Shown here: positions 28,901 through 57,740 of the stretch, in pieces
Numbering within the stretch: position 1 is the first letter of the stretch
Layout: each line of letters starts with the position of its first letter
NCBI RefSeq assembly: GCF_040412425.1
Contig: NC_089781.1
Coordinates: 47,817,175 to 47,881,174, forward strand
DNA: 64,000 nt
DNA from: Macrobrachium rosenbergii
Lineage: Eukaryota > Arthropoda > Malacostraca > Decapoda > Palaemonidae
Direction: 5' to 3'
Translations under genes and position numbers: made by a program
The notes under the pieces: generated by a model
The model's database searches: none
What the model was told of the DNA's origin: nothing
What the model saw: only the letters and a program-made list of their open reading frames with translations

Positions 28901-30480
28901 TAGAGAATGTTTTTCTTCTTCACAAAAGATGATCTTGTTTCAAAATCTATCTGTCATTGGATACCATGAGCATTTGTAGAGAATGTTTTTCTCTTTCACA
29001 AAAGATGGCCTTGTTTAAATTCATCTGTCATTGGATACCGTCATTGAAGAATGTTTTTATCTTCACAAAAGATGATCTTGTGTCAAAATTCATCTGTCAT
29101 TAGGATAGAGAATTTTTTTTTCTCTTCACAAAAGATGATCTTTTCAAAAATTCATCTATCAGTGGATAACATGAGCATCCTTAGAGAATGTTTTTCTCTT
29201 CACAAAGATGATGATACTGTCAAAAATTCATCTGTCATTGGATACCATGAGAATTTATAGAGAATGTTTTTTCTCTTCACAAAGATGATTTTGTATTCAA
29301 AAATTCATCTTGCCATTAGATTGATACCACGGTGAGCATCCTGTAGAGAATGTTTTTCTTTCACAAAAGATGATCTTGTTTCAAAATTCATCTGTCATTG
29401 GATACCATGAGCATTTGTAGAGAATGTTTTTCTCTTCACAAAAGATGATCTTGTTTCAAAATTCATTTGCCATTAGATACCATGAGCATTTGTAGAGAAT
29501 GTTTTTCTTTTCACAAAAGATGATCTTTTGTCAAAACTCATCTGTCATTGGATACCATGAGCATCCTTAGAGAATGTTTTTCTCTTCACAAAAAGATGAT
29601 CTTTGTGTCAAAATTCATCTTGTTGGATACCATCATTCTTGGATACTGTCATTGGAGCATTTGTAGAGAATGTTTTTTCTCACAAAGATGATCTTGTTTA
29701 AAATTCATCTGTCATTGGATACCATGACCATCCTTAGAGAATGTTTTTCCCAAAAGATGATCTTTTTCAAAATTCATCTGTCATTGGATACCATGAGCAT
29801 TTATAGAGAATGTTTTCTCTTCAAAAAGATGATCTTGTGTCAAAATTCATCTGTCATTGGATACCATGACATCCTTTAGAGAATGTTTTTCTTCACAAAA
29901 GATGATCTTGTGTCAAAATTCATTTGCCATTAGATACCATGAGCATTTGTAGAGAATGTTTTTCTGTTCACAAAAGATGATCTTGTTTCAAAACTCATCT
30001 GTCATTGGATACATGAGCATTTGAGAAAGTATTTTTCTCTTCACAAAGATGATCTTTTGTGTCAAATTCATCTTGGTCATTGGATACCATTTTAAGCATC
30101 CTTAGAGAATGATTTTCTCTTCAAAAGATACTCTTCTTGTCAAAACTCATCTGTCATTGGATACCATGAGCATGGAATGTTTTCTCTTCAAAAGATGATC
30201 TTGTGTCAAAATTCATCTGTTCATTGAGTACCACGACCATCCTAGAGAATGTTTTTTCTCTTCAAAAGATGATCTTTTTTCAAAATTCATCTCATTGGAT
30301 ACCATGAGAGCATTTGTAGAGAATGTTTTTCTTTTTAACAAAAGATGATCTTGTGTCAAAATTCATACTGTGAGCATCAGAATGTTTTTCTTCACAAAGA
30401 TGATCTTGTGTCAAAATTCATGAGCCATTAGATACCATGAGCATAGAGAATGTTTTTCTTTTCAAAAAAGATGATCTTGT
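22930..30480. repeat. Higher-order repeat zone with recurring multi-monomer modules
   Basis: The linked variants catctatcagtggata and catttgccattagata (or close forms) recur about 75-160 bp apart at 23.1, 24.8-25.0, 26.4, 28.4-28.6 and 29.15-29.3 kb. They are often followed by a ctgttcac variant, aaactcatctg, and accgtgggcatc or agagaaagttttt. Two copies, 23,090-23,660 and 26,385-26,960, are colinear over about eight monomers. Later copies carry more small deletions. These blocks differ from the more uniform monomers after about 38 kb, so parts of the array have amplified at different times. Confidence 0.65.
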
Positions 30481-33400: not shown

Positions 33401-36400
33401 TCCTTAGAGAATGTTTTCTCTTCACAAAAGATGATCTTGTTTCAAAATTCATCTGTCAATGGATACCATGAGCATTTGTAGAGAATGTTTTTCTCTTCAC
33501 AAAAGATGATCTTGTGTCAAAATTCATTTGTCATTGGATACCATGAGCATCCTTAGAGAATGTTTTCTCTTCACAAAGATGATCTTGTTTCAAATTCATC
33601 TGTCATTGGATACCATGAGCATCCTGTTTTCTCTTAAAGAGAATGATTTTTTCAAAATTCATCTTTCACATAATGAGCATTTGTACATATTTTCTCTTCA
33701 AAATTGATCTTGTGTCAATTTCATTTACCATTAGAGCATTTTAGAGAATGTTTTTCTCTTCACAAAAGATGATCTTGTGTCAAAATTCATCTGTCATTGG
33801 ATACCGTGGCATTTGTAGAGAAATTTTCTCTTCATGGATGATCTTGTTTCAAAATTCATCTGTCTTGGATACCATGAGCATCCTTAGAGAATGTCTTGTT
33901 TCAAAATTTCTGTCATTGGAAGATGATCTTGTGTTTCAAAAAAAGATTCTTGTTTCAAAATCTGTCATTGGATACCATGAGCATTTTAGGAGAATGTTTT
34001 TCTCTTCACAAAAGATGATCTTGTGTCAAAAAATTCATCTGTCATTGGATACCATGAGCATCCTTAGAGAATGTTTTTCTCTTCACAAAAGATGATCTTG
34101 TTTCAAAATTCATCTGTCATTGGATACCATGAGCATTTGTAGAGTTTTTCTCTTCTAATGATATTGTTCAAAAATTCGTCTGTCATTGGATACCATGAGC
34201 ATTTGTACACAAAAAGATGATCTTGTTGTCAAAATTCATCTGTTCATTGGATACCATGAGCATCCTTAGAGAATGTTTTTCTCTTCACAAAAGATGATCT
34301 TGTGTCAAAATTCATCTGTCATTGGATACCATGAGCATCTGTAGAGAATGTTTTCTCTTCACAAAAGATGATCTTGTTTAAAATTCATCTGTCATTGGAT
34401 ACCATGACCATCCTTAGAGAATGTTTTCTCTTCAAAAGATGATCTTTTTTCAAAATTCATCTGTCATTGGATACCATGAGCATCCTATAGAGAATGTTTT
34501 CTCTTCACAAAAGATGATCTTGTGTCAAAAAATTCATCTGTCATTGGATACTGTGAGCATTTGTAGAGAATGTTTTTCTTCACAAAAGATGATCTTGTGT
34601 CAAAATTCATTGTCATTGGATACCATGAGCATTTGTAGAGAATGTTTTTTCTTTTCACAAAAGATGATCTTGTTTCAAAATTCATCTGTCATTGGATACC
34701 ATGAGCATCCTTAGAAAGTTTTCTCTTCAGAATGTTTTTCATCTGTTCTTGGATACCATGAGCATCCATAGAAAAGATGATCTTGTTTCAAAATTCATCT
34801 GTCATTGGATACCATGAGCATTTTGTAAGAATGTTTTTCTCTTCACAAAAGATGATCTTGTGTCAAAATTCATGTCATTATTGGAATAACATGAGATTCT
34901 GTCATTGGAGAATGTTTTTTCTCTTCACAAAAGATGATCTTGTTGTCAAAAATTCATCTGTCATTGGATACCATGAGAATCCTTATTTTCTCTTCAGAAA
35001 AGATGTTTTTCATCTTCACAAAAGATGATCTTGCATCAAAATTCTTCTTTTCTTGGATACCATGAGCATCCTTAGAGAATATTTTTCTCTTCACAAAAGA
35101 TGATCTTGTGTCAAAATTCATCTGTCATTGGATACCATGAGCATTTGAGAATTTTTCCTCTTCACAAAAGATGATCTTTTGTCACAAAAGATGATCTTGT
35201 TTCAAAATTCATCTGTCATTGGGATACCATGAGCATCCTTAGAGAATCTTTTTTGTCTTCACAAAAGATGATCTTGTGTCAAAATTCATCTGTCATTGGA
35301 TACCATGAGCATTTGTAGAGAATGTTTTCTCTTCACAAAGATGATCTTGTGTTAAAAAATTCATCTGTCATTGGATACCATGAGCATTTGTAGAGAATGT
35401 TTTCTCTTCACAAAAATGATCTTGTTTCAAAAGATTGGATCTTGTGTTTTTCTCTTTACAAAGATGATCTTGTGTCAAAATTCATCTGTCATTGGATACC
35501 ATGGTATTTGTAGAGCATGATCTTGTTCAAAAAATTAGAGAAATGTTTTCTCTTCACAAAAGATGATCTTGTTTCAAAATTCATCTGTCATTGGATACCA
35601 TGAGCATCCTTAGAGAATGTTTTTCTCTTCACAAAAGATGATCTTGTTTCAAAATTCATCTGTCATTGGATACCACGAGCATTTGTAGAGTATGTTTTTC
35701 TCTTCACAAAAGATGATCTTGTTTTCAAAATTCATCTGTCATTGGATACCATGAGAATCCTTAGAGAATGTTTTCTCTTCACAAAAGATGATCTTGTTTC
35801 AAAATTCATGTCATACTGTCATTGGATGTTTTCTCATGAGTGTCATCCTTAGTTTTTCTGTTCACAAAAGATGAGAATGTTTTTTTTCTTCAAAAAGATG
35901 ATCTTGTTTCAAAAATTCATCTGTCATTGGATACCATGAGCATTTAGAGAATGTTTTTCTCTTTACAAAGATGATCTTGTTTCAAAATTCATCTGTCTGT
36001 CATTTGTAGATGTTTTCTCTTCACAAAAGATGATCTTGTGTCAAAATTCATGTCATTGGATACCATTAGCATCCTTAGAGAATGTTTTCTCTTCACAAAA
36101 GATGATCTTGTTCCAAAATTCATCTGTCATTGGATACCATGAGCATCCTAGAGAATGTTTTCTCTTCACAAAAGATGATCTTGTGTCAAAATTCATCTGT
36201 CATTGGATACCATGAGCATTTGTAGAGAATGTTTTTTCTCTTCACAAAAGATGATCTTGTGTTAAAATTCATCTGTCATTGGATACCATGAGCATCCTTT
36301 AGAGAATGTTTTTCTCTTCAAAAAGATGACTTGTTTAACAAAAGTCATTGGATATCATCCTTAGAATGTTTTTCTTCAAAAAGATGATCTTGTTTCAAAA

Positions 36401-38799
36401 TTGATTGGATACCATGAGCATTTGTAGTTTTCTCTTCAAAAGATACAAAAGATGATTTTTCTTCATTCTGTCACAAAAGATGTTTTCTCTTCATGATCTT
36501 GTGTCAAAATTCATCTGTCATTGGATACCATGAGCATCCTTAGAGAATGTTTTTCTCTTCACAAAAGATGATCTTGTTTTCAAAAATTCATCTGTCATTG
36601 GATACCATGAGCATTTTAGAATGTTTTCTCTTCACAAAAGATGATCTTGTTTCAAAATTCATCTGTCATTGGATACCATGAGCATCCTGTAGAGAATGTT
36701 TTCTCTTCACAAAAGATGATCTTGTTTCAAAATTCATCTGTCATTGGATACCAGAGCATTTGTAGAGAATTTTTCTCTTCACAAAAGATGATCTTGTTTC
36801 AAAATTCATCTGTCATTGGATACCATGAGCATCCTAGAGAATGTTTTCTCTTCACAAAAGATGATCTTGTTTCAAAATTCATCTGTCATTGGATACCATG
36901 AGCATCCTTAGAGAATGTTTTCTCTTCACAAAAGATGATCTTGTTTCAAAATTCATCTGTCATTGGATACCATGAGCATCCTGTAGAGAATGTTTTCTCT
37001 TCATTGATCTTTTGTCAAAAATTCATCTATCATTGGTACCATGAGCATTTTAGAAATGTTTTCTCTTCACAAAAGATGATCTTGTGTCAAAATTCATCTG
37101 TCATTGGATACCATGAGCATTTGTAGAGAATGTTTTTCTCTTCACAAAAGATGATCTTGTTTCAAAATTCATCTGTCATTGGATACCATGAGCATCCTTA
37201 GAGAATGTTTTTCTCTTCACAAAAGATGATCTTGTTTCAAAATTCATCTGTCATTGGATACCATGAGCATTTGTAGAGAATGTTTTCTCTTCTTCACATC
37301 TGTCAAAGATGATCTTCTTCAAAAGATTGTGTCAAAATTCATCTGTCATTGGATACCATGAGCATTTGAGAGAATGTTTTTCTCTTCACAAAAGATGATC
37401 TTGTGTCAAAATTCATCTGTCATTGGATACCATGAGCATTTATAGAGAATGTTTTCTCTTCACTTTGTCAAAGATTGGATCTTTTTTGTCTTTTGGATAA
37501 AAAGATTCTTGTTTCAAAATTCTGTCATTGGATACCATGAGCATCCTTAGAATGATGTTTTTCTCTTCACAAAAGATGATCTTGTTTCAAAATTCATCTC
37601 TGGATACATGAGCATTGGATACCAAGCATTTGTATTGGATAGCATGAGAATGTTTTTCTCTTCACAAAAGATGATCTTGTTTCAAAATTCATCTGTCATT
37701 GGATACCATGAGCATCCTTAGAGAATGTTTTCTCTTCACAAAAGATGATCTTGTTTCAAAATTCATCTGTCATTGGATACCATGAGCATCCTGTAGAGAA
37801 TGTTTTCTCTTCACAAAAGATGATCTTGTTTCAAAATTCATCTGTCATTGGATACCATGAGCATCCTTAGAGAATGTTTTCTCTTCACAAAAATGATTTT
37901 GTCAAAATTCATCTGTCATTGGATACAAAATTTTGTAGATGATTTTCTCTTCACAAAAGATGATCTTGTCAAAATTCATCTGTCATTGGATACCATGAGC
38001 ATTTGTAGAGAATGTTTTCTCTTCACAAAAGATGATCTTGTTTCAAAATTCATCTGTCATTGGATACCATGAGCATTTAGAGAATGTTTTTCTTCACAAA
38101 AGATGATCTTGTGTCAAAATTCATCTGTCATTGGATACCATGAGCATCCTTAGAGAATGTTTTCTCTTCACAAAAGATGATCTTGTTTCAAAATTCATCT
38201 GTCATTGGATACCATGAGCATCTTGAGAGAATGTTTTTCTCTTCACAAAAGATGATCTTGTTTCAAAATTCATCTGTCATTGGATACCATCCTTAGAGCA
38301 TGATCTTTTTTTCAAAATTCAGAGGATACCAATGTTTTTCTCTTCACAAAAGATGATCTTGTGTCAAAATTCATCTGTCATTGGATACCATGAGCATCCT
38401 TAGAGAAATGTTTTCTCTTCACAAAAGATGATCTTGTGTCAAAATTCATCTGTCATTGGATACCATGAGCATTTGTTAGAGAATGTTTTCTCTTCACAAA
38501 AGATGATCTTGTGTCAAAAATTCATCTGTCATTGGATACCATGAGCATCCTTAGAGAATGTTTTTCTCTTCACAAAGATGATCTTGTTTCAAAATTCATC
38601 TGTCATTGGATACCATGAGCATTTTTACTTCACAAAGAGAATTTTTCTCTTCACAAAAGATGATCTTTTCAAAATTCTCTTCATTGGAAATGAGATGAAT
38701 GTTTTTTCTTCACAAAAATGATCTTGTGTCAAAATTCATCTGTCATTGGATACCATGAGCATCTCTTCACAAAGATGATCTTTTCATCTGTCATTGGAT

Positions 38800-41700
38800 A
38801 CCAAAAGATCTCTTCACAAAGATGATCTTGTTTCAAAATTCATCTGTCATTGGATACCATGAGCATCCTTAGAGAATGTTTTTCTCTTCACAAAAGATGA
38901 TCTTGTTTCAAAATTCATCTGTCATTGGATACCATGAGCATCCTTAGAGAATGTTTTTCTCTTCACAAAAGATGATCTTGTTTCAAAATTCATCTGTCAT
39001 TGGATACCATGAGCATTTGTAGAGAATGTTTTTCTCTTCACAAAAGATGATCTTGTTTCAAAATTCATCTGTCATTGGATACCATGAGCATCCTTAGAGA
39101 ATGTTTTTCTCTTCACAAAAGATGATCTTGTGTCAAAATTCATCTGTCATTGGATACCATGATCCTTTGTAGAATGATTTTCTCTTCACAAAAGATGATC
39201 TTGTTTGTCAAAATTCATCTGTCATTGGATACCATGAGCATTTTAGAGAATGTTTTTCTCTTCACAAAAGATGATCTTGTGTCAAAATTCATCTGTCATT
39301 GGATACCATGAGCATCCTGTAGAGAATGTTTTTCTCTTCACAAAAGATGATCTTGTTTCAAAGATGATCTTGAGAATTTTTTCTCTTCACAAAATTCATT
39401 CATCTGTCATTGGATACCATGAGCATCCTTAGAGAATGTTTTTTTCTTCACAAAAGATGATCTTGTTTCAAAATTCATCTGTCATTGGATACCATGAGCA
39501 TCCTTAGAGAAATGTTTTCTCTTCACAAAGATGATCTTGTTTCAAAATTCATCTGTCATTTAGAAATGTTTTCTCTTGATCTTGTGTCAAAATTCATTTG
39601 TCATTGATACCATGAGCATTTGTAGAGAATGTTTTTCTCTTCACAAAAGATGATCTTGTTTCAAAATTCATCTGTCATTGGATACCATGAGCATTTGTAG
39701 AGAATGTTTTCTCTTCACAAAAAGATGATCTTGTTTCAAAATTCATCTGTCATTGGATACCATGAGCATCCTTAAGAATAGATGATCTTGTTTCATACCA
39801 TTTTGTTTTTCTCTTCACAAAAATGATCTTGTGTCTTGTCATTGGATACCAAAAAGAATGTTTTTCTTTTCATGATCTTGTTCCAAAATTCATCTGTCAT
39901 TGGATACCATGAGCATGATCTTGTGTCAAAATTCATCTGTCATTGGATACCAATGTTTTTCTCTTCACAAAAGATGATCTTGTTTCAAAATTCATCTGTC
40001 ATTGGATACCATGAGCCTTTGTAGAGAATGTTTTCTCTTCACAAAAGATGATCTTGTTTCAAAATTCATCTGTCATTGGATACATTTGTATGAGCATTCA
40101 TCTGTCATTGGATACCATGAGCATTTGTTGTTTTTTCTTCACAAATGATCTTGTTTCAAAAAATTCATCTGTCATTGGATACCATGAGCATCCTTAGAGA
40201 ATGTTTTCTCTTTTCACAAAAGATGATCTTGTGTCAAAAATTTCATCTGTCATTGGATACCATTAGATATATCCTTAGAGAATTTTTCTCTTCAGAAAAG
40301 ATGATTTTGTTTCAAAATTCATCTGTCATTGGATACCATGAGCATCCTTAGAGAATATTTTTCTCTTCATAAAAGATGATCTTGTTTCAAAATTCATCTG
40401 TCATTGGATACCATGATCCTTAGAGAATGTTTTTCTTCACAAAAGATGATCTTGTGTCAAAATTCATCTGTCATTGGATACCATGAGCATTTGTAGAGAA
40501 TGTTTTTCTCTTCACAAAAGATGATCTTGTGTCAAAATTCATCTGTCATTGGATACCATGAGCATCCTTAGAGAATGTTTTCTCTTCACAAAAGATGATC
40601 TTGTGTCAAAATTCATCTGTCATTGGATACCATGAGCATCCTTAGAGAATGTTTTTTTCTCTTCAAAAAGATGATCTTTTGTCAAAATTCATTTGTCATT
40701 GGATACCATGAGCAACCTTAGAGAATGTTTACCTCTTCATAAAAGATGATCTTGTGTCAAAATTCATGTGTCATTGGATACCTTGAGCATCCTGAAGAAT
40801 GTTTTTCTCTTCACAAAAGATGATCTTGTGTCAAAATTCATCTGTCATTGGATACCATGAGCATCCTTTTCTAGAAGATGATCTTGTTTCAAAATTCATC
40901 TGTCATTGGATACCATGAGCAAAAAAGATGATCTTGTGTCAAAATTCATCTGTCATTGGATACCATGAGCATCCTTAGAGAATGTTTTTCTTCACAAAAG
41001 ATGATCTTGTTTCAAAATTCATCTGTCATTCCTTAGGATACCTTCAAAGATGATCTTGTGTCATCATTGTCAGAACCATGAACAATTTTGTTTTCTTTCA
41101 CAAAAGATGATCTTGTTTCAAAATTCATCTGTCATTGGATACCATGAGCATCCTTAGAGAATGTTTTCTCTTCACAAAAGATGATCTTGTGTCAAAATTC
41201 ATCTGTCATTGGATACCATGAGCATCCTTAGAGAATTTTTTTCTTTTCAAATTCAAAAGATGATCTTGTTTCAAAATTCATCTGTTCTTGGATACCATGA
41301 GCATCCTTAGAGCATCTCTTAGAAAATGTTTCTGTCATTGGATACCATTCCTTAGAGAATGTTTTTCTCTTCAGATGATCTTGTTTCAAAATTCATCTGT
41401 CATTGGATACCATGAGCATCCTTAGAGAATTTTTTTCTCTTCACAAAAGATGATCTTGTTTCAAAATTCATCTGTCATTGCATACCATGAGCATCCTTAC
41501 AGATGATGTTTTTCAAAATTCATCTCATTGGAAAGATGATCTTGTAGAGAATTTTTCTCTTCAAATTGATCTTGTGTCATTGGATGTCATTGGAGTATCC
41601 ATGATAGTAGAATGTTTTTTTCTTCACAAAAGATGATCTTGTTTCAAAATTCATCTGTCATTGGATACCATGAGCATCCTTAGAGAATGTTTTTCTTTTC

Positions 41701-44700
41701 AAAAGATGATCTTGTTTTCATCTTCATTGGATACCAAATTTGTAGATGATCTTGTGATTTGTGTCAAAATTCATCTGTCATTGGATACCATGAGAATCCT
41801 TACAAAGATGATCTTTTTGTCAAAATTCACAAAAGATGATACCATCTTGTGTTTTTCAAAATTCATCTGTCATTGGATACCATGAGCATTTGTAGAGAAT
41901 GTTTTTCTCTTCACAAAAAGGTGATCTTGTGTCAAAATTCATCTGTCATTGGATACCATGAGCATCCTTAGAGAATTTTTTTTTTTCACAAAATCTTGAT
42001 GATCTTGTGTTTTTTTTCAAAATTCATCTGTCATTGGATACCATGAGCATCCTTAGAGAATTTTTTCTCTTCACAAAAGATGATCTTGTGTCAAAATTCA
42101 TCTGTCATTGGATACCATGAGCATCCTCAGAGAATGTTTTTCTCTTCACAAAAGATGATCTTGTTTCAAAATTCATCTGTCATTGGATGCCATGAGCATC
42201 CTTAGAGAATGTTTTTTTTTTCTTCACAAAAGATGATCTTGTTCAAAATTCATCTGTCATTGGAAATGAGCATGAATCTTTTTCTCTTCACAATGATCTT
42301 GTGTCAAAAATTCATCTGTCATTGGATACCATGAGCATCCTTAGAATGTTTTTCTCTTCACAAAATGATCTTGTTCAAAAATTCATCTGTCATTGGATAC
42401 CATGAGCATCCTTAGAGAATGTTTTCTCTTCAAAAAGATGATCTTGTTTCAAAATTCATCTGTCATTGGATACCATGAGCATCCTTAAAGAATGTTTTTT
42501 TTCATTGGATAATGAGCATCCTTAGAGATCTTCAAAAAGATGATCTTGTGTCAAAATTCATCTGTCATTGGATACCATGAGCATCGTTAGAGAATGTTTT
42601 TCTCTTCACAAAAGATGATCTTGAATTCTTTTCATTTTGTCTCATCTGTCATTGGATACCATGAGCATCCTTGAGAATTTTTCTCTTGCAAAGATGATCT
42701 TTTGTTAAATTCAGATGATCTTTTCTTCACAAAAGATGATCTTGTTTCAAAATTCATCTGTTCTTGGATATCATGAGCATCCATAGAGAATATTTTTCTC
42801 TTCAAGAAGATGATCTTTTGTCAAAATTCATTTGTCATTGGATACCATGAGCAACCTTAGAGAATGTTTATCTCTTCATAAAAGATGATCTTGTGTCAAA
42901 ATTCATCTGTCATTGGATACCATTGAGCATCCTTAGAAGAATGTTTTTCTTCACAAAGATGATCTTGTTTTTCATCTGTCATTGGATACCATGAGATGAT
43001 TTTTTCTTTTCAAAAAATGATCATCAAAATCATTGTCATTGGATACCATGAGCATCCTGTAGAGAATTTTTCTCTTCACAAAAGATGATCTTGTGTCAAA
43101 ATTCATCTGTCATTGGATACCATGATCATTAGAGAATGTTTTTTCTTTTCATTTTGTAAAAGATGATCTTGTTTCAAAATTCATCTGTCATTGAGCATCC
43201 TTAGAGAATGTTTTTCTCTTCACAAAAGATGATCTTGTGTCAAAATTCATCTGTCATTGGATGATCCTTGAGAATGTTTTTCTCAAAAATTCATCTGTCA
43301 TTCATCTGTCATTGATACCATGACCTTTTCAAAATTCATCCTTAGAGAATGTTTTTCTTTCACAAAAGATGATCTTGTGTTTAAAAATCATCTGTCATTG
43401 GATACCATGAGCATCCTTAGAGCATTTTCTCTTCAGAAAGATGATCTTGTTTCAAATTCTTCTGTCATTGGATACTTCCTTACAAAAGATGATCTTGTGT
43501 CAAAATTCATCTGTCTGTCATTGGATCTTCACAAAATGATCTTGCATCATCTGTCATTGGATACCATATTTTTCTCTTCACAAAAGATGATCTTGTGTCA
43601 AAATTCATCTGTCATTGGATACCATGAGCATCCTTGTCAGAGAATGTTTTTTCTCTTCACAAAAGATGATCTTGTGTCAAAATTCATCTGTCATTGGATA
43701 CCATGAGCATCCTTAGAGAATGTTTTTTCTTCACAGAAGATGATCTTGTTCCAAAATTCATCTGTTCTTGGATACCATGATTTTTCTCTTCACGAAAGAT
43801 GATCTTGTTTCAAAATTCATCTGTCATTGGATACCATGAGCATCTCTTCAAAAGATGATCTTGTTTCAAAATTCATCTGTCATTGGATACCAAAAGATGA
43901 TTCACAAAAGATGATCTTGTGTCAAAATTCATCTGTCATTGGATACCATGAGCATTTGTAGAGAATTTTTCTTCTTCACAAAAGATGATCTTGTGTCAAA
44001 ATTCATCTGTCATTGGATACCATGAGCATCCTTTCACAGAGATTTTCTTTCACAAAAGATGATCTTGTCTTGGATCAAAAATTCATCTGTCATTGGATAC
44101 CATGAGCATCCTTAGAGAATGTTTTTTTCTTCACAAAAGATGATCTTGCGTCAAAATTCATCTGTCATTGGATACCATGAGCATTTGTAGAGAATGTTTT
44201 TCTCTTCACAAAAGATGATCTTGTGTCAAAATTCATCTGTCATTGGATACCATGAGCATCTCTTAAAAAGATGATCTTGTGTCAAAAATTCATCTGTCAT
44301 TGGATACCATGAGCATTTGAATGTCAAAATTCATCTGTCATTGGATACCATGGAGCATCCTTAGAAAACAAATATGATCTTGTTGTCAAATTTCATCTGT
44401 CATTGGATACCATGAGTATCTCTTCAGAGAATGTTTTTCTCTTTGGATACCATGAAAAGATGATCTTGTGATCTTGTGTCAAAATTCATCTGTCATTGGA
44501 TACCATGAGCATCCTTAGAGAATGTTTTTCTCTTCACAAAAGATGATCTTGTTTCAAAATTCATCTGTCATTGGATACCATGAGCATCCTTAGAGAATGT
44601 TTTCTCTTCACAAAAGATGATCTTGTGTCAAAATTCATCTGTCATTGGATACCATGAGCATCCTTAGAGAATGTTTTTTTCTTTTCACAAAGGATTCTTG

Positions 44701-47700
44701 TGTAAAAATTCAATTGATGATCTTGTGTTTTCTCTTCAAAAAGATGATTTGTTTCTGTCATTGGATACCATGAGCATTTGTTTTCTCTTCACAAAGATGA
44801 TCTTGTTTTCATGTCATTGGATACCATGAGCAAAAATGATGATCTTGTGTCAAAATTCATCTGTCATTGGATGTTTTCTCTTCATGATCTTGTTTCATCA
44901 TTGTCATTGAATTTTTCTCTTCACAAAAGATGATCTTGTGTCAAAATTCATCTGTCATTGGATACCATGAGCATCCTTAGAGAATGTTTTTCTCTTCACA
45001 AAAGATGATCTTGTGTTTTCTGTCATTGGATACCATGAGCATCATTAGAGAATGTTTTCTCTTCAAAAATCTGTCATGATCTTGTTTCAAAATTTTTTCA
45101 TCTGTCATCTTTGGATACCATGAGCATTTGTAGAGAATGTTTTCTCTTCACAAAAATGATCTTGTGTCAAATTCATCTGTCATTGGATACCATGAGCATC
45201 CTTAGAGAATGTTTTTCTCTTCACAAAAGATGATCTTGTGTCAAAATTCATCTGTCATTGGATACCATGAGCATCCTTAGAGAATGTTTTTCTCTTCACA
45301 AAAGATGATCTTGTTTCAAAATTCATCTGTCATTGGATACCATGAGCATCCTTAAGAATGTTTTTCTCTTCACAAAAGATGATCTTGTGTCAAAATTCAT
45401 CTGTCATTGGATACCATGAGCATTTGTAGAGAATGTTTTTCTCTTCACAAAAGATGATCTTGTGTCAAAATTCATCTGTCATTGGATACCATGAGCATCC
45501 TTAGAGAATGTTTTTCTTCACAAAATGATCTTGTTTCAAAAATTGGATACCATGAGCATATGATCTTCACAAAAGATGATCTTGTGTCAAAATTCATCTG
45601 TCATTGGATACCATGAGCATCCTTAGAGAATTTTTCTCTTCACAAAAGATGATCTTGATACCATGAGCATCATTAGAGAATGTTTTTCTCTTCACAAAAG
45701 ATGATCTTGTGTCAAAATTCATCTTGTCATTGGATACTTTTCATGAGCATCCTTAGAGAATGTTTTCTCTTCATAAAATATGATCTTGAATGTGTCATTG
45801 GCATTTTGATCTTCACAAAATGATCTTGTGTCAAAATTCATCTGTCATTGGATACCATGAGCATTTCTAGAGAATGTTTTTCTCTTCACAAAGATGATCT
45901 TGTTTCAAAATTCATCTGTCATTGGATACCATGAGCATCCTTAGAGAATGTTTTCTCTTCACAAAAGATGATCTTGTGTCAAAAGATGATCTTGTGCATC
46001 AAAATTCATGATCTTTCTCAAAAGATGATTGGTCATACCCATGAGCATTTAGAGAATGTTTTTCTCTTCACAAAAGATGATCTTGTGTTAAAATTCATCT
46101 GTCATTGGATACCATGAGCATCCTTAGAGAATGTTTTCTCTTCACAAAAGATGATCTTGTGTCAAAATTCATCTGTCATTGGATACCATGAGCATCCTTG
46201 TAGAGAATGTTTTTCTCTTCAGAAAATGATCTTTTTCAAAATTCATCTCACATTGATACCATGATCCTTGTGTTTTCAAAATCTTTCACGAGATGATCTT
46301 GTGTAAAATTCATCTGTCATTGGATACCATGAGCATTTTAGAGAATGTTTTTCTCTTCACAAAAGATGATCTTGTGTCAAAATTCATCTGTCATTGGATA
46401 CCATGAGCATCATAAGAATGTTTTTCTCTTCACAAAAGATGATCTTGTTTCAAAATTCATCTGTCATTGGATACCATGAGCATCCTTAGAAAATGTTTTC
46501 TCAAAATTCATCTGTCAAAAATGATCTTGTTGTCAAAATTCATCTGTCATTGGATACCATGAGCATTTTTCTAGAGAATGTTTTTCTTCACAAAAGATGA
46601 TCTTGTGTCAAAATTCATCTGTCATTGGATACCATGAGCATTTTAGAGAATGTTTTTCATCTTCATGATTTTTCTTCATATCATTGGATACCATGAGCAT
46701 CAAAAAGATGATCTTGTGTCAAAATTCATCTGTCATTGATACCATGAGCATTTGTAGAGAATGTTTTTCTCTTCACAAAGATGATCTTGTTTTTCAAATT
46801 CTTGTCATTTCTTGGTCTTCATCATGTTTTTCTCTTCACAAAAGATGATCTTGTCAAAATTCATCTGTCATTGGATACCATGAGCATCCTTAGAGAATGT
46901 TTTTTTTCACAAAAGATGATCTTGTGTCAAAAATTCATCTGTCATTGGATACCATGAGCATCCTTAGAGAATGTTTTTCTCTTCACAAAAGATGATCTTG
47001 TGTCAAAATTCATCTGTCATTCATCTGATCTTGTTTCAAAAATTCATTGGATTGGATACTGTGAGCATTTTCTCTTCACAAAAGATGATCTTATTTCAAA
47101 ATTTTCATTGGATACCATTCATTTGTAAAATGTTTTTCTCTTCACAAAAGATGATCTTGTTTCAAAATTCATCTGTCATTGGATACCATGAGCATCCTTA
47201 GAGAATGTTTTCTCTTCACAAAAGATGATCTTGTGTCAAAATTCATCTGTCATTGGATACCATGAGCATCCTTGAAGAATGTTTTTTTCTTCACAAAAGA
47301 TGATCTTGTTTCAAAATTCATCTTTCATTGGATACCATGAGCATTTGTAGAGAATGTTTTTTTCTTCACAGAAGATGATCTTGTTTCAAAATTCATCTGT
47401 AATTGGATACCATGAGCATCGTTAGAGAATGTTTTTCTCTTCACAAAAGATGATCTTGTTTCAAAATTCATCTGTCATTGGATACCATGAGCATCTCTTA
47501 GAAAGATGATCTTGTTTCAAATTTTTCTTGATCTTCACAAATGTTTCAAAATTCATCTGTCATTGGATACCATGAGCATCCTTAGAGAATGTTTTCTCTT
47601 CACAAAAGATGATCTTGTGTCAAAAATTCATCTGTCATTGGATACCATGAGCATCCTTAGAGAATGTTTTTCTCTTCACAAAAGATGATCTTGTGTCAAA

Positions 47701-50700
47701 ATTCATCTGTCATTGGATACCATGAGCATCCTTAGAGAATGTCATTTCTTTTCACAAAAAGATGATCTTGTGTCAAAATTCATCTGTCATTGGATACCAT
47801 GAGCATCCTTAGAGAATTTTTCTCTTCACAAAGATGATCTTGTTTAAAAATTCATCTGTCATTGGATACCATGAAATCCTTTAGAGAATGTTTTCTCTTC
47901 ACAAAAGATGATCTTGTGTCAAAAATTCATCTGTCATTGGATACCATGAGCATCCTTGTAGAGAATGTTTTTCTTCTTCAAAAAGATGATCTTGTTTCAA
48001 AATTCATCTGTCATTGGATACCATGAGCATCCTTAGAGAATGTTTTTCTCTTCACAAAAGATGATCTTGTTTCAAAATTCATCTGTCATTGGATACCATG
48101 AGCATCCTTAGAGAATTTTTCTCTTCACAAAGATGATCTTGTTTAAAAATTCATCTGTCATTGGATACCATGAGCATCCTTAGAGAATGTTTTTCTCTTC
48201 ACAAAAGATGATCTTGTGTCAAAATTCATCTGTCATTGGATACCATGAGCATCCTTAGAGAATGTTTTTTCTCTTCACAAAAGATGATCTTGTGTCAAAA
48301 TTCATCTGTCATTGGATACCATGAGCATCCTTAGAGAATGTTTTCTCTTCACAAAAGATGATCTTGTGTCAAAATTCATCTGTCATTGGATACCATGAGC
48401 ATCCTTAGAGAATGTTTTTCTCTTCACAAAAGATGATCTTGTTTCAAAATTCATCTGTCATTGGATACCATGAGCATGTTTTTATCTTATAAAATGATTT
48501 TCTCTTCATCTGTCATTGATGATCTGTTTTCTCAAAATTGATCTTGTGTCAAAATTCATGTCATTGGATACCATGAGCATTTGTTAGAGAATGTTTTTCT
48601 CTTCACAAAAGATGATCTTGTGTCAAAATTCATCTGTCATTGGATACCATGAGCATCCTGAGAGAATGTTTTCTTTTCACAAAAGATGATCTTGTTTCAA
48701 AATTCATCTGTCATTGGATACCATGAGCATCCTTAGAGAATGTTTTTCTTCACAAAAGATGATCTTGTTTCAAAATTCATCTGTCAAAATGAGCATGTTT
48801 TTCTTTTCACAAAAGATGATCTTGTTTCAAATTCTTGTTTTCTCTTCACAAAAGATTTGTCAAAATTCATCTGTCATTGGATACCATGAGCATCCATTGT
48901 TTTTCTCTTCACAAAAGATGATCTTGTGTCAAAATTCATACCATGAGCATCCTTAGAGAATGTTTTTTTTCTTCACAAAAGATGATCTTGTTTCAAAATT
49001 CATCTGTCATTGGATACCATGAGCATCCTTAGAGAATGTTTTTTCTTTCACAAAAGATGATCTTGTTTCAAAATTCATCTGTCATTGGATACCATGAGCA
49101 TCCTTAGAGAATGTTTTCTCTTCAAAAAATATGATCTTGTTTCAAAATTCATCTGTCATTGGATACCATGAGCATCCTTAGAGAATGTTTTCTCTTCACA
49201 AAAGATGATCTTGTGTCAAAATTCATCTGTCATTGGATACCATGAGCATCCTTAGAGAATGTTTTCTCTTCACAAAAGATGATCTTGTTTCAAAATTCAT
49301 CTGTCATTGGATACCATGATCCTTAGAGAATGTTTTTCTCTTCACAAAAGATGATCTTGTTTCAAAATTCATCTGTCATTGGATACCATGAGCATTTGTA
49401 GAAAGATGATCTTGTGTCAAAATTCATCTGTCATTGGATACCATGAGCATCCTTAGAGAATGTTTTTCTTCACAAAAGATGATCTTGTGTCAAAATTCAT
49501 CTGTCATTGGATACCATGAGCATCCTTAGAGAATGTTTTTCTTCTTCAAAAAGATGATCTTGTTTCAAAATTCATCTGTCATTGGATACCATGAGCATTT
49601 GTAGAGAATGATGATTTGTGTCTTCACAAAAGATGATCTTGTCTTGTCAAAATTCATCTGTCATTGGATACCATGAGCATCCTTAAGAATGTTTTTTCTC
49701 TTCACAAAAGATGTGATCTTGTGTCAAAATTCATCTGTCATTGGATACCATGAGCATCCTTAGAGAATGATTTTCTTTTCACAAAAAATGATCTTGTGTC
49801 AAAATTCATCTGTCATTGGATACCATGAGAATCCTTAGAGAATGATTTTCTCTTCACAAAAGATGATTTTGTTTCAAAATTCATCTGTCATTGGATACCA
49901 TGAGCATCCTTCACAAAATGATTTGTTTCTCTTCACAAAATGATGATTTCTTCAAAAAGATGATCTTGTGTCAAAATTCATCTGTCATTGGATACCATGA
50001 GCATCCTTAGAGAATGTTTTCTCTTCACAAAAGATGATCTTGTGTCAAAATTCATCTGTCATTGGATACCATGAGCATCCTTAGAGAATGTTTTTTTCTC
50101 TTCACAAAAGATCTTGTGTCAAAATTCATCTGTCATTGGATACCATGAGCATCCTAGAGAAAAAAAGATGATCTTGTGTCAAAATTCATGTCATTGGATA
50201 CCATGAGCATCCTTAAAGAATGTTTTCTCTTCACAAAGATGATCTTGTTTCAAAATTCATCTGTCATTGGATACCATGAGCATCCTTAGAAATGTTTTTT
50301 CTCTTCACAAAAGATTATCTTGTTTCAAAATTCATCTGTCATTGGATACCATGAGCATCATAAGAATGTTTTTCTTCTTCTTCACAAAAGATGATCTTGT
50401 GTCAAATATTTTCTCTTCACAAAAAATGATCTTGTTTCAAAATTCATCTGTCATTGGATACCATGAGCATTTTAGAGAATGTTTTTCTCTTCACAAAAGA
50501 TGATCTTGTTTCAAAATTCATCTGTCATTGGATACCATGAGCATCCTTAGAGAATGTTTTTCTCTTCACAAAAGATGATCTTGTGTCAAAATTCATCTGT
50601 CATTGGATACCATGAGCATCCTTAGAGAATGTTTTTCTCTTCACAAAAGATGATCTTGTTTCAAAATTCATCTGTCATTGGATACCATGACCATCCTTAA

Positions 50701-53700
50701 GAATGTTTTCAATTCACAAAAGATGACCTTGTGTCAAAATTCATCTGTCATTGGATACCATGAGATGATTTTTTTCTCTTCACAAAAGATGATCTTGTGT
50801 CAAAATTCATCTGTCATTGGATACCATGAGCATCCTTAAGAATGAAAAAGATGATCTTGTCAAAATCTTCACAAAAGATGATTTTTTGTGATCTTGTGTC
50901 AAAATTCATCTGTCATTGGATACCATGAGCATCCTTAGAGAATATTTTTCTCTTCACAAAAGATGATCTTGTTTCAAAATTCATCTGTCATTGGATACCA
51001 TGAGCATCCTTAGAGAAGGGTTTTCTCTTCACAAAAGATGATCTTGTGTCAAAATTCATCTGTCATTGGATACCATGAGCATCCTTAGAGAATGTTTTTC
51101 TCTTCACAAAAGATGATCTTGTGTCAAAATTCATCTGTCATTGGATACCATGAGCATCCTTAGAGAATGTTTTTCTTTCTTCAAAAGATGATCTTGTGTC
51201 AAAATTCATCTGTCATTGGATACCATGAGCATCCTGTAGAGAATGTTTTCTCTTCACAAAAGATGATCTTGTGTTCAAAATTCATCTGTCATTGGATACC
51301 ATCTTGAAAATTCATCCATTGGATACCATAGAGAATGTTTTCTTTTCACAAAAGATGATCTTGTGTCAAAATTCATCTGTCATTGGATACCATGAGCATC
51401 CTTAAGAATGTTTTTCTCTTCACAAAAAATGATCTTGTGTCAAAATTCATCTGTCATTGGATACCATGAGCATTTGTAGAAATGATTTTCTCTTCACAAA
51501 AGATGATCTTGTGTCAAAATTCATCTGTCATTGGATAAAAGATGATTTTCTCTTCACAAAAGATGATCTTGTGTCAAAATTCATCTGTCATTGGATACCA
51601 TGAGCATCTCTTCACAAGATCTTGAAAATTCATTTTGGATACCATCTTCACAAACAAAAGATGATCTTGTGTCAAAATTCATGTCATTGGATACATTGGA
51701 TACTCTTTCATGATCTTGTTTCAAAATTCATCTGTCATTGGAGAATCCTTAAAATTTTTCTCTTCACAAAAGATGATCTTGTGTTAAAATTCATCTGTCA
51801 TTGGATACCATGAGCATCATTAGAGAATGTTCGTGAAAATTCATCTGTCATTGGAAAAAGCATTTTCTCTTCATGAGCAAAAGATGATCTTGTGTCAAAA
51901 TTCATCTGTCATTGGATACCATGAGCATTTGTAGAAAAGAATGTTTTCATCTGTCATTCAGCATCCTTATAGAATGTTTTCTCTTCAAAAAGATGATCTT
52001 GTGTCAAAATTCATCTGTCATTGGATACCATGAGCATCCTTAGAGAATGTTTTTTCTTCACAAAAGATGATCTTGTGTCAAAATTCATCTGTCATTGGAT
52101 ACCATGAGCATTTGTAGAGAATGTTTTCTCTCTTCACAAAGATGATCTTGTGTCAAAATTCATCTGTCATTGGATACCATGAGCATCCTTAGAGAATATT
52201 TTCTCTTCATGAAAAGATGATCTTGTTTCAAAATTCATCTCTCATTGGATACAAAAGAAATGATCTTGTGTCAAAAATTCATCTGTCATTGGATACCATG
52301 AGCATCCTTAGAGAATGTTTTTCTCTTCACAAAAGATGATCTTGTGTCAAAATTCATCTGTCATTGGATACCATGAGCATCCTTAGAGAATGTTTTCTCT
52401 TCACAAAAAGATGATCTTGTGTCAAAATTCATCTGTCATTGGATACCATGAGCATCATTAGAGAATTTTCTCTTCACAAAGATGATCTTGTGTCAAATTC
52501 ATCTGTCATTGGATACCATGAGCATTTGTAGAGAATTTTTTCTCTTCACAAAAGATGATCTTGTGTCAAAATTCATCTGTCATTGGATACCATGAGCATC
52601 CTTAGAGAATGTTTTTCTCTTCACAAAAGATGATCTTGTGTCAAAATTCATCTGTCATTGGATACATTGAATTTTTCTCATCACAAAAGATGATCTTGTG
52701 TCAAAATTCATTTGTCATTGGGTACCATGAGCATTTGTAGAGAATGGTTTTCTCTTCACGAAAGATGATCTTGTGTCAAAATTCATATCATTGGATACCA
52801 TGAGCATCCTTAGAGAATTTTTCTCTTCACAAATATGACTTGTGTCAAAATTCATCTGTCATTGGATACCATGAGCATTTGTAGAGAATGTTTTTCTCTT
52901 CACAAAAGATGATCTTGTGTCAAAATTCATCTGTCATTGGATACCATGAGCATCCTTAGAGAATGTTTTTCTCTTCACAAAAGATGATCTTGTGTCAAAA
53001 TTCATCTGTCATTGGATACCACCATGAGCATTTGTAGAGAATGTTTTTCTTGTTCACAAAAGATGATCTTGTGTCAAAATTCATCTGTCATTGGATACCA
53101 TGAGCATTTGTAGAGAATGTTTTTCTCTTCACAAAAGATGATCTTGTGTCAAATTCATCTGTCATTGGGATACCATGAGCATTTGTAGAGAATGTTTTTC
53201 TCTTCACAAAAGATGATCTTGTTTCAAAATTCATCTGTTATTGGATACCATGAGCATCCTTAGAGAATTTTTCTCTTCACAAAATATGACTTGTGTCAAA
53301 ATTCATCTGTCATTGGATACCATGAGCATTTGTAGAGAATGTTTTTTCTCTTCACAAAATGATATGATTGTGTCAAATGTCATTGGATACCATGAGCATT
53401 TGTAGAGAATGTTTTTCTCTTCACAAAAGATGATCTTGTGTCAAAATTCATCTGTCATTGGATACCATGAGCATCCTTAGAGAATGTTTTTCTCTTCACA
53501 AAAGATGATCTTGTGTCAAAATTCATCTGTCATTGGATACCATGAGCATTTGTAGAGAATGTTTTTCTCTTCACAAAAGATGATCTTGTGTCAAAATTCA
53601 TCTGTCATTGGATACCATGAGCATCCTAGAGAATGTTTTTTCTTCACAAAAGATGATCTTGTGTCAAAATTCTGTCTGGATCATTGGCATACCATGATCT

Positions 53701-54940
53701 TGCATTCCTTAGGATAGAGCATTTGTTTTTCTCTTCACAAAAGATGATCTTGTGTCAAAATTCATCTGTCATTGGATACCATGAGCAGCATCTCTTAGAA
53801 AGATGATCTTGTTTCAAAAATTCATCTGTCATTTTACTTCTTCAGAAGGGTTTTCAAAAGATGATCTTGTGTCAAAATTCATCTGTCATTGGATACCATG
53901 AGCATCCTTAGAGAGAATGTTTTCTCTTCACAAAAGATGATCTTGTTTCAAAATTCATCTGTCATTGGATACCATCCTTAGAGAAGAGAGCATCCTTAGA
54001 GAATCTTGTTTTCATCTGTCTTCACAAAAGATGATCTTGTTTCAAAATTCATCTGTCATTGGATACCATGAGCATCCTTAGAGAATGTTTTTTCTCTTCA
54101 CAAAAGATGATCTTGTGTCAAAATTCATCTGTCATTGGATACCATGAGCATCCTCAGAGAATGTTTTCTCTTCACAAAAGATGATCTTGTTTCAAAATTC
54201 ATCTGTCATTGGATACCATGATCCTTATTTTTCTCTTCACAAAAGATGATCTTGTTCAAAATTCATCTGTCATTGGATACCATGAATATCCTTAGAGAGT
54301 TTTTCTCTTCACAAAAGATGATCTTGTTTCAAAATTCATCTGTCATTGGATACCATGAGATAATCCTTCAGAAAAGATGATCTTGTTTCAAAATTCATAT
54401 GTCATTGGATACCAAAGCATCATTAGAGAACGTTTTCTCTTCACAAAAGATGATCTTGTGTCAAAATTCATCTGTCATTGGATACCATGAGCATCCTTAG
54501 AGAATGTTTTTCTATTCACAAAAGATGATCTTGTTTCAAAATTCATCTGTCATTGGATACCATGAGCTTCATTTGTAGAGAATGTTTTTCTCTTCACAAA
54601 GATGGATTTTGAAAATTCCTCTGTCATTGGATACAAAATCTGTTTTCTCTTCACAAAAGGTGATCTTGTGTCAAAATTCATCTGTCATTGGATACCATGA
54701 GCATCCTTAGAGAATATTTTTCTCTTCAGAAAAGATGATTTTGTTTCAAAATTCATCTGTCATCAGATACCATGAGCATCCTTAGAGAAGGTTTTTCTCT
54801 TCACAAAAGATGATCTTGTGTCAAAATTCATCTGCCATTGGATACCATGAGCATCCGTAGAGAATGTTTTTCTCTTCGCAAAAGATGATCTTGTGTCAAA
54901 ATTCATCTGTCATTGCATACCATGAATATCCTTAGAGAAT
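38800..54940. repeat. More homogeneous part of the satellite
   Basis: Runs of near-identical 75-bp monomers are frequent, for example 38,820-39,130, 45,180-45,490, 48,000-48,470 and 52,840-53,640. Scrambled monomers interrupt them (41,500-41,600, 44,690-44,930, 46,660-46,840, 51,600-51,740). Higher similarity suggests more recent homogenisation than in the 7-12 kb or 24-31 kb parts. This is a visual judgement; I have not computed identities. Confidence 0.55.
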
Positions 54941-55715
54941 GTTTTTTCTTCACAAAAGATGATCTTGTATCAAAATCATCTGTAATTCGATGCCATGAGC
55001 ATCTGTAGAGAAAGTTTTTTCATCACAAAAGATGACCATGTCCCAAAATTCATGTCATTCGATACTGTGAGCATATGCAGAGAATGTTTTTTATAACAAA
55101 GGAAGACCTTCCAAAATCAATCGGCCATTTTATACCATGAGCATCCTTTGAGACTATCTTTTCATCACAAACAATGACCTTGTTCCAAGATTCGTCTGTC
55201 ATTGGATACCATGAGCATCTGTAGAGAATGTTTTTGTATCACCGAAGATGACCTTGTTCCAAAATGTGTCCGTCATTGGATGCCATGAGCATCCTCAGAG
55301 TAAGTTTTTTCATCACAACTGGTGACCTTGTTCCAAAATTCACCTGACCTTGGATACCGTGACCACCTGTAGAGAATGTTTTTTCATTGCAGAAGATGAC
55401 CCTGTTCCAAAACCCATGTGTTATTGGATACCTTAGGCATCTCTAGAAAATGTTTTTCCATCACAAAAGACGAGTTCTAAAATTCATCTGTCTTTGGATA
55501 CTGTTAGCATTCATAAAGAATGTTTTTTCACCACAGAAGAAGACCTTATACCACAATTCATGTCATTGGATATCATGAGCATCCATAGAGAATGTTTTTT
55601 CATCCCACAAGATGACCTTGTCCCAAAATTTATGCCATTGGATACCGTAAGCATCCTTAGAGAATCTTTTTTCATCACAAACAATGAACTTGTTCCAATT
55701 TTCAACCATCAGTAG
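54940..55715 (-). repeat. Diverged right-edge monomers that keep the Tc1 D1 motif frame
   Basis: About ten diverged units with 70-74 bp spacing between their gatac or equivalent positions (55061, 55131, 55205, 55279, 55353, 55427, 55497, 55569, 55641, 55715). Minus-strand translation gives successive variants of W-N-K-V-I-F-C-D-E-K-T-F-S-x-D-A-H-G-I-Q. The rightmost, with Trp codon 55695-55697 and Asp codon 55674-55676, reads W-N-K-F-I-V-C-D-E-K-R-F-S-K-D-A-Y-G. Known family pattern: Tc1-like transposases have W-x-x-V-I-F-x-D-E-x-x-F around their first catalytic Asp. Edge units are closest to that pattern. Core units have shifted frame within the D-E-K region and carry a TGA where the edge unit ending near 55642 keeps Trp. 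I infer that the edge preserves the ancestor and the core is derived. Confidence 0.75.
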
Positions 55716-56113
55716 ATAATGTTGCCAAACAATGCAAGGGTGTCTTCTTGATGTCGTTTGGTAAGAAGAGTTTTCATGGCTGGAATGTGGTGATATATTC
55801 CAATGTCATGCAATCTGTCCCGGATCACTTGAATTCTATCTTGAATTGTTATCTCCTTCCTTATTGCTGGAGCATTGGTAAGGGGAGTTCTGTGTACCAT
55901 GTCTGTGATCAGCTGATTTTTATGGCAAGTTGTGTGGCACTGTTTTCCACTCCTGTGAAGATTCTTGACATTTCTGCTTTCCCTCTCTTATTATGTCCAC
56001 ATATACACAGTTCTTATGCTCATACCACCCTGCTGTGGAATTTCTCTGGCCTTGTGTAAATTTACAATTGATTCTCTGACAGAGATGTTAATGTTTGTGG
56101 GTCGATGTTTCAT
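55709..56113 (-). pseudogene. Tc1-like transposase, N-terminal part, broken
   Basis: Read on the minus strand from the ATG at 56113-56111, about 134 codons begin M-K-H-R-P-T-N. An N-terminal helix-turn-helix follows (I-V-N-L-H-K-A ... G-M-S-I-R-T-V-Y-M-W), then two in-frame TAA codons (about 55995-56000). Next come N-V-K-N-L-H-R-S-G-K, corresponding to the linker that is usually N-L-P-R-S-G-R-P in the family, then L-I-T-D-M-V-H-R-T-P-L-T-N-A-P-A-I and V-I-R-D-R-L-H-D-I-G-I-Y-H-H, the second DNA-binding region. It ends L-A-L-F-G-N-I-I-Y-stop. The next family feature, W-x-x-V-I-F-x-D-E, appears at the expected distance in another frame as the first satellite monomer (55697 leftwards). The catalytic C-terminal half is absent from the window. 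In a full-length element (about 340 residues) this enzyme would cut and join terminal inverted repeats at TA sites. This copy cannot work. The family call rests on motif order; I ran no search. Confidence 0.85.
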
Positions 56114-56780
56114 TGCGATAAACTTAGTTCAACTAATTTATGTTGAATGGTTTGTTTTCCTGCCCTACATGATAATTGACGTCATGACAAACAGAGAAAC
56201 TTGAATAAGGAGGCAGTATCATTGCTTTTTTTTTTTTTTAGATTGGAACGAATATTTCTAATTTAATTACTTTTGTCTTAAAACTATCTGAATGCAATAG
56301 TAAAATAAATGCTCACAGTTATTCAGATTTTAAATATCAAAGTGCTTCGCACTTAAATTCTTTAATTTCATGGAAAGATAGTTTTAGGTTATTTCATGTT
56401 ATTTTTATGCCACTTTTATATATTGTTTATATGCATAGTAATCTTATTCTGATTGTAAAGTTTGGTTTCTGTTTAATTTTAAAGGAAAAAATATCTTTTG
56501 GTGAACAAAATTCACTGAAAACTCTGCCAGAATTCTCCAGAACTACTACACCCAAAAAGATATTCCCTTTGCAAAAGATCATAGTGGTTGCAAACTTAGT
56601 CAGTTCAATTTTACTCTGTAGGTAACCCAAAGATTTTATGTTCTTCATGTTAGTGATTAGTGATTAAATTCTCGATCTAGTATCAAGCTATGAAATTTTA
56701 TTAATATAATTTGCCTTTCCTTATAGTTTATTGTGAGGTTTGATAATCTTATAACTGGCATAAAAATCTTTATGTTTTAG
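56114..56780. other. AT-rich intron-like DNA before the HMGCS exon
   Basis: No gene recognised. The first 100 bp may be the 5' untranslated end of the Tc1-like copy, but I could not identify its terminal inverted repeat. A T14 run lies at 56226-56239 and is followed by an AG, which could be a polypyrimidine tract or the poly(A) of an old minus-strand retroinsert. The open frames of about 72 codons on both strands at 56407-56648 overlap each other and match nothing I know. The last bases, tttatgttttag, form the splice acceptor of the next feature. Confidence 0.6.
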
Positions 56781-56981
56781 GTTATGAAAATATTGGCCGC
56801 CTTGAAGTTGGAACAGAGACTATCATCGACAAGTCTAAGAGTGTGAAGAGTGTCCTGATGCAGCTTTTTGAAGAGTCAGGCAACACTGATGTTGAAGGAA
56901 TTGATACTACCAATGCTTGTTATGGTGGAACAGCAGCGCTTATTAATGCTCTGAATTGGGTGGAGTCAAGTTCTTGGGACG
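56781..56981 (+). CDS. HMG-CoA synthase, one internal exon with the active site
   Basis: A 201-nt exon. Hydroxymethylglutaryl-CoA synthase condenses acetyl-CoA with acetoacetyl-CoA in the mevalonate pathway; in arthropods this feeds farnesyl-derived hormones rather than sterols. The translation runs [18 protein letters not shown], then [25 protein letters not shown], ending W-V-E-S-S-S-W-D. Cys codon 56918-56920 is the acyl-enzyme nucleophile (Cys129 of vertebrate cytosolic enzyme). Counting back 34 residues puts the Glu of G-T-E-T at Glu95, the general acid/base. The acceptor is ttatgttttag before 56781 and the donor is gtaagtt from 56982. The exon begins after the first base of a codon and ends one base into the next, so it is symmetrical (phase 1-1). 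Residues before about 83 and after about 149 are not in the window. The exon shows no stop or frameshift and looks functional. Confidence 0.96.

Positions 56982-57739: not shown

Positions 57740-57740
<1 letters not shown>

Follow-up and report, generated by a model that had tools for sequence, protein, structure and literature searches.

A Tandem Array Very Probably Born from an Internal Transposase Segment of a Tc1-Like Transposon within an HMG-CoA Synthase Intron

Introduction

Satellite origins are usually reconstructed from scattered hints, and the locus described here raises the question of whether a long tandem array and the broken transposon attached to it can be read as product and parent. 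Reviews on the subject, in their available text, describe transposon parts as feeding satellites mostly through terminal or non-coding regions, with some retrotransposon open reading frames also contributing (PMC9659126, PMC12628747). The window, by which we mean the whole stretch of 64,000 nucleotides that was analysed, corresponds to G000:C41:47817175-47881174 in an assembly of 3.18 Gb and 78 contigs, and an extra 60 kb was fetched leftward, where positions carry a minus sign. We argue that the array was very probably born from an internal transposase segment of a Tc1-like transposon lying in an intron of an HMG-CoA synthase gene.

Extent, Unit and Setting of the Array

A tandem repeat scan finds repeats of about 75 bp as far as window position 55,698, and the array forms a single block from -48,180 to 55,719, with 103,887 of 103,899 bases covered, amounting to 103.9 kb as assembled and reaching 48 kb past the window's left end. 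Its part within the window, placed by the scan, by coverage and by wrap-around segmentation, occupies 1..55715 on the minus strand. Segmentation of the whole array yields 1,423 pieces with a mean of 73.0 bp, partial units counted in, and the "55 kb" and "~750 monomers" given by the first-pass annotation describe the window's share only. Orientation is uniform (2,786 plus matches and 0 minus), such that the array, at its assembled length, has the long head-to-tail form of a satellite derived from a transposable element. The unit measures 74-75 bp and its minus-strand reading is the transposase stretch T-D-E-F-W-N-K-V-I-F-C-D-E-K-T-F-S-T-D-A-H-G, the edge units being translated as FWNKVIFCDEKTFSTDAHG. 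Since 74 is not a multiple of 3, the frame shifts between repeats and the array does not form a coding repeat; most likely it has no protein function. DNA hairpins in the unit, considered as a cause of slippage, gave no signal (z 0.58 and -0.36).

Read from the right, the minus strand carries a host Tc1-like 5′ part at 55716..56541, comprising the 5′ end region, a leader and exon 1, which contains an HTH_Tnp_Tc3_2-like stretch broken by stops and indels. It is followed by the first unit, which is the transposon's own copy of the segment (55642..55715, delimited by segmentation and by alignment with 17 family copies and the relative L048), by nine diverged right-edge relic units (54990..55641), several of which keep the transposon-like states TTTTGG and GATGAAAA, and by a core (1..54989) of units of one derived variant (TTTTGACAC, GAAGAGA), in which variation is dominated by indels and is probably assembly error.

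On the plus strand, an HMG-CoA synthase exon with an AG acceptor and a GTAAGT donor lies at 56781..56981 (PF01154, E 1.6e-38). In the whole assembly PF01154 matches twice, at C41:47873945-47874175 (profile 68-144) and at C41:47707884-47708000 (profile 32-70), both on the plus strand and 165,944 bp apart with the array in between, which places the array inside one 166-kb intron, if the gene is intact. No second HMG-CoA synthase gene was found in this genome-wide search, which detects exons long and conserved enough to score. Downstream of the exon lie two perfect microsatellites, (AAT)28 at window 57338-57423 and (TAT)32 at 57740-57837, and, at 58400-62950, open frames that, judged by eye, look like those of a non-LTR retrotransposon, with reverse transcriptase-like and RNase H-like parts.

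The Host Transposon and Its Relatives

The minus strand of the window reads MKHRPTNINIS...HIPAMKTLLTKRHQEDTLALFGNIIY-stop, with HYLLMVENWNKFIVCDEKRFSKDAYGIQ in another frame. In this broken copy a Pfam search finds only a weak HTH_Tnp_Tc3_2 (PF01498, E 0.0088, below the cut-off) and no DDE_3 match. Likewise, the 25-residue unit peptide alone matched no Pfam family, and exon 1 of the relative L048, which holds the segment, gave no DDE_3 match by itself. A sequence search of the transposase against solved structures returned only two matches, both to HTH regulators (E 0.027 and 0.045).

Relatives come from a DDE_3 search of the same genome (150 of 2,891 candidates scored), which supplied 20 + 20 loci that were fetched by coordinate, three of the first 20 containing long N stretches. 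Among them L048 is a close relative of the window copy. It has PF01498 in exon 1 (E 1.5e-8), PF13358 in exon 2 (E 2.1e-16, from profile position 32) and terminal inverted repeats of 32 bp at 87.5% identity, with its start at 1018 and its end at 3884; HTH_Tnp_Tc3_2 and DDE_3 domains together with terminal inverted repeats mark this relative as Tc1-like. It reads RYYPMTDELWSKVIFCDEKTFSTDAHGSLHCWRPRNTR, followed by the intron donor. Alignment of the window copy begins at L048 1023, and by eye no clear TA pair is seen as a target-site duplication at the ends of L048 or at the flanks of the window copy.

The unit segment covers what its motif suggests to be the first catalytic Asp of the transposase. 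In support of this label, the segment aligns with WREVLWTDEATF of L030, a locus whose DDE_3 match spans profile 2-141. The motif W..VI..DEKTF is also present in other Tc1-like families of the same genome (L031, L050 and L052).

An intron is a feature of this Tc1-like lineage, lying after 1995 and up to about 2567 in L048 and after 958 and up to about 1460 in L031, and it splits the DDE domain shortly past the first Asp, which is likely why the DDE_3 search catches many copies only from profile position 30-40 on. The genome's strongest DDE_3 matches (L001-L008) belong to another transposase family with a (V/L/I)DE(T/S)GYN-type motif.

The Founding Joint and the Native Flanks

The window from 56,541 to 55,640 aligns with L048 1023-1965 at 71.6% over 964 bp; within this alignment, L048 1293-1965 against window 56300-55640 runs through the 55,700 junction and takes in the first unit. 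Continuity of nucleotide identity with a copy from the same genome across that junction was the check proposed by the first-pass annotation, which had reported a catalytic-Asp-type reading in the edge monomers and, upstream on the same strand, an N-terminal transposase part ending LALFGNIIY-stop, separated by the usual spacing with one frame change. All of these observations are borne out: the upstream frame does terminate in LALFGNIIY-stop, the spacing is native, and the frame change comes from the loss of 1 bp (GCA-TTG), a deletion carried by none of the 17 aligned family copies. The attached Tc1-like part itself stands as well, extending to 56,541 rather than ending at 56,113, and the suggested profile check of the window copy gave no more than the sub-threshold PF01498 match.

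When window 55,690-56,230 was searched as DNA against its own genome, 38 rows came back, one being the query itself. The family sample consists of 17 of the other 37, namely L048 and 16 short stretches; the 20 rows outside it comprise a longer stretch (C12:100097364) and 19 of <=164 bp. In none of the 17 copies is the segment in tandem. It is present in 16 of them, whole or nearly so in 13, with small deletions in two (L061 and L063) and with insertions in one (L072), and L065 retains its first half only, so the copies lacking monomer-like sequence that could have spoken against this origin did not turn up. The monomer is thus homologous to part of an element that exists elsewhere without tandem copies.

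The family consensus, built from 13 of the 17 copies, has GCAGTATTACCCAATG upstream of the segment and CACGGTAGCCTTCACTGTTGG...AAG|GTAAGC downstream, up to the intron donor. Its unit, from TACCCAATG through CACGG, is 74 bp, which is also the commonest length of right-edge units (5 of 10). The typical joint of the array is GGTATCCAATG, joining the downstream end ...CACGGTA to the upstream start TA(T/C)CCAATG; in the main array GGTATCC occurs at joints 1,010 times and GGTAGCC once, and the satellite joint is absent from the examined transposon copies. At the upstream motif, TATCC is found in three of the 17 copies (L058, L061 and L067) and TACCC in the family consensus. The joint sequence suggests that the array was founded by tandem duplication of 74 bp lying between the imperfect direct repeats TA(T/C)CC and TAGCC, although this microhomology is short enough to be chance. 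An earlier placement of the joint, drawn from L048 alone as a 78-bp unit with a CGG microhomology, was dropped once the 17 copies had been aligned.

The first unit has native upstream context (GCAACATTATCTACTGATG / GCAACATTATCTACTG) and, downstream, the satellite-type joint GGTATCCAATGG. On the left, the edge of the array at -48,180 is interrupted by an element of about 480 bp whose 59-bp inverted ends are 88% alike. An intact 3′ half of the transposon right beside this edge was looked for, and none lies within 12 kb or within 22 kb. The genome-wide pattern search located two edge-type units at C41:47742484 and 47742556, putting the distal end of the array 26.4 kb away. The last unit (C41:47742454, locus L073) has GGTAGCCTTCACCATTGG and terminates in GGATGCTCATGGTAGCCTTCACCATTGG, which is the native downstream context (GGTAGCCTTCACC.TTGG), and past it the sequence matches the intron of L048 (1950-2474) at 68.7% over 550 bp (E 5.8e-68). 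With native context at the first unit and past the last one, the array is flanked by native transposon on either side, and these flanks, together with a joint absent from the copies, argue on sequence grounds for descent from element to satellite. A search of the 9.3 kb to the left of this intron match (as far as C41:47732600) turned up neither exon 2 nor the 3′ end of the host copy, which makes the host an incomplete element.

The two array pieces would have been parted by later transposon insertions, one or several. Between them, C41:47742640-47768995 (window -74,535 to -48,180) is a 26.4-kb nest of transposons containing an LTR retrotransposon with 374-bp repeats 98% alike, frames that by eye look DIRS-like and mariner-like, a palindrome of 370 bp (94%) at C41:47767211-47767580 and the inverted-repeat element of about 480 bp.

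Edge Units and Core Units

For a comparison of edges and core, 10 right-edge and 21 left-edge units (31 in all) were set against 1,391 core units. TTGG occurs in 15 edge units and 34 core units, G(A/T)GATGAAAA in 12 and 4, and (C/A)TACAG in 10 and 33, respectively; the transposon-like states are those enriched at the edges. At these three sites the core states are seen in 4, 0 and 2 edge units, and the remainder have neither state, as is the case for 19 of the 31 at the GATGAAAA site. The switch into the core type is abrupt, at window 54,989.

Consensus sequences point the same way. That of the nine right-edge units has 24 open codons, reads PKTDEFWNKVIFCDEKTFSTDAHG and agrees with L048 at 63 of the 74 positions aligned; the left-edge consensus (built from 34 of the last 44 units, with core-type ones among them) matches at 62 and the core consensus (150 units sampled) at 60, and both of these read PMTDEF. 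Alignment scores against L048 are 52 for the right edge, 49 for the left edge and 44 for the core, and the maxima over 2,000 shuffles each are 15, 16 and 13, which rules out chance similarity of the unit to the transposase. Taken as a whole, the proposal of the first-pass annotation that about 24 transposase codons gave rise to the satellite is supported more strongly than it had been put. Compared one by one with the family consensus, edge units score 0.78-0.79 and, in most bins, core units 0.79-0.83. Taken singly, edge units are no nearer to the family because each has drifted, and a polarity from edge to core is suggested by the shared sites and the edge consensuses. Similarity among edge units is equal within and between the two edges (0.74, 0.72 and 0.73), as expected for one early generation.

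Quality of the Assembled Core

Variation in the core has a different character. The edges (30 units) have 0.14 indels per substitution, whereas the core has 1.01 (1,383 units), or 0.76 when only its 959 full-length units are counted. In the core, 1-bp deletions outnumber 1-bp insertions by about 2:1 (1,600 vs 739), and the transition/transversion ratio outside the variant sites is 0.83, compared to 1.48 at the edges. Pairwise scores in the core are flat, from 0.87 at lag 1 to 0.857 at lag 800 (<=250 pairs per lag), and mean identity is 87%, or 0.89-0.95 for units of 66-80 bp, both being values of the assembly. Core variation looks like the pattern of uncorrected long-read error and not like natural decay, and window 1-54989, continuing to about -46,511, is likely an unpolished stretch. 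The length of 104 kb, the unit count and the homogeneity are hence approximate, a second amplification step is uncertain, and the true core may be more homogeneous than assembled. A star-like burst in the core was considered and set aside, the flat lag curve being confounded by the error-like indels.

It is quite conceivable, though we lean against it, that the long core is largely a product of assembly, in which uncorrected reads inflated or garbled a shorter or near-identical array. The equality of indels and substitutions, the excess of deletions, the low transition/transversion ratio and the flat lag curve would all fit such a history, whereas the variant sites C/A at position 21 and TAAGGA/TACAAA look like real subtypes, and no exact 300-bp repeat points to simple duplication by the assembler. 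This account bears on size and homogeneity and is compatible with a transposase origin of the satellite, which is based on the edges and flanks.

Uniqueness and Direction of Descent

The whole assembly was searched with the pattern ATGAATTTTGGAACAAGGTCATCTTTTGTGATG at <=3 mismatches, matches being counted in full and about 100 places listed. There are 206 reverse and 11 forward matches. All 206 reverse matches are explained by the main array (203), the two distal units and one transposon copy (C1:18779637, L067), and among the 10 listed of the 11 forward matches, nine fall in examined transposon copies and one on C72. The reverse matches thus include no second array, at a limited sensitivity: even at this locus the pattern picks up only 203 of about 1,420 units, so an array of a distant variant could be missed. 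Within that sensitivity, arrays elsewhere without a Tc1 link, which the first-pass annotation had named as evidence against its proposal, did not appear, since 205 of the reverse matches belong to this locus and one to a transposon copy. A core-variant pattern gave 540 matches (<=3 mismatches) within C41:47757175-47881174. Satellites of this class are judged by abundance at many loci or a heterochromatic location; the array occupies one locus, at the pattern's sensitivity, and is intronic, and it is better called a single-locus megasatellite.

Descent in the opposite direction, in which a Tc1-like element would have acquired the segment from a satellite that already existed, by capture of or recombination with all or some of its units, has a parallel in the capture of tandem repeats by transposons that the available text proposes for Xenopus miDNA4 (PMC12628747). 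Here it is very improbable, as the segment is integral to the transposase reading frame, its motif recurs in the families of L031, L050 and L052, none of the 17 family copies has it in tandem, no other array is seen at the pattern's sensitivity, and the native flanks on both sides largely refute it. Neighbouring position alone could be accidental, but that a transposon merely landed at the edge of an unrelated satellite it happens to resemble is hardly credible given the shuffle scores, the continuous alignment with native spacing across the junction and the native flank at the opposite end.

Under the transposase origin that we favor, an intron-bearing Tc1-like transposon would have inserted into the HMG-CoA synthase intron and then decayed. 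A 74-bp stretch of its exon 1 between TA(T/C)CC and TAGCC, running from T-D-E-F-W over the presumed first catalytic Asp to D-A-H-G, would then have undergone tandem duplication, for which replication slippage or microhomology-mediated repair is the probable cause. The array may have grown to at least about 30 units, which diverged, until one derived variant was amplified to >1,000 units (as assembled), leaving relics of the first generation at both ends, and younger transposons would later have ended up inside the array, close to the left end. Whether the locus amounts to a complete, closed record of a satellite's birth, with both founding breakpoints, both native flanks, diverged first-generation edges and a second-generation core, is a reading to which we give tentative credence, a little short of even. 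If it does, a single burst, such as rolling-circle copying, may have added the core, as opposed to gradual unequal exchange.

Comparison with Known Systems

The nearest precedent is CficCl-61-40 of Chenopodium, a satellite described in the available text as derived from a fragment of tnp2 of the CACTA transposon Jozin, the fragment and the consensus monomers being 82.1-94.9% identical (PMC7320549). There, too, a short internal transposase-coding fragment serves as monomer and the array is attached to an incomplete transposase, with CficCl-61-40 arrays in the same orientation; differences are the plant host, the CACTA superfamily, a unit of about 40 bp, its rank as the most abundant satellite family there and its several associations, as far as the available text goes (PMC7320549). 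Complete tnp2 domains of Chenopodium are stated in the same text to lack the start motif of the parent fragment (PMC7320549), whereas unrearranged copies in the present genome carry the segment singly. The present array is Tc1-like, has a 74-bp unit, occupies one locus and has native flanks on both sides. The kind is therefore already known, and the record here is unusually complete.

To our knowledge, the Bari1 clusters of Drosophila melanogaster are not built of a 74-bp internal coding segment. Bari1, of the Tc1-mariner group, does resemble the present case as a Tc1-like element made tandem, but its clusters are described, in the available text, as about 80 repeats of the element (PMC9659126). 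Xenopus miDNA4 is likewise a tandem array inside a Tc1/mariner-related element for which microhomology is invoked, and differs, according to the accessible parts of both sources, in being a non-autonomous MITE with a suggested capture of a pre-existing repeat and not transposase coding sequence (PMC12628747, PMC9659126). A relation between a coding segment of a mobile element and a satellite is also described for CR1 ORF2 and HinfI in chicken and for LINE-1 ORF2 and PROsat, both of which, in the text available, concern Class I elements (PMC9659126). Our literature search, with subscription papers mostly outside its scope, found no report of a satellite from an internal Tc1 transposase segment, a weak negative.

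Implications

At this locus the parent is attached on both sides, unrearranged relatives exist in the same genome, and the founding joint is legible nearly to the base, which makes models of the first duplication and of array growth testable at one locus. Because the array is intronic in a gene of the mevalonate pathway with no second copy found, one can also ask how it affects splicing or expression, if at all.
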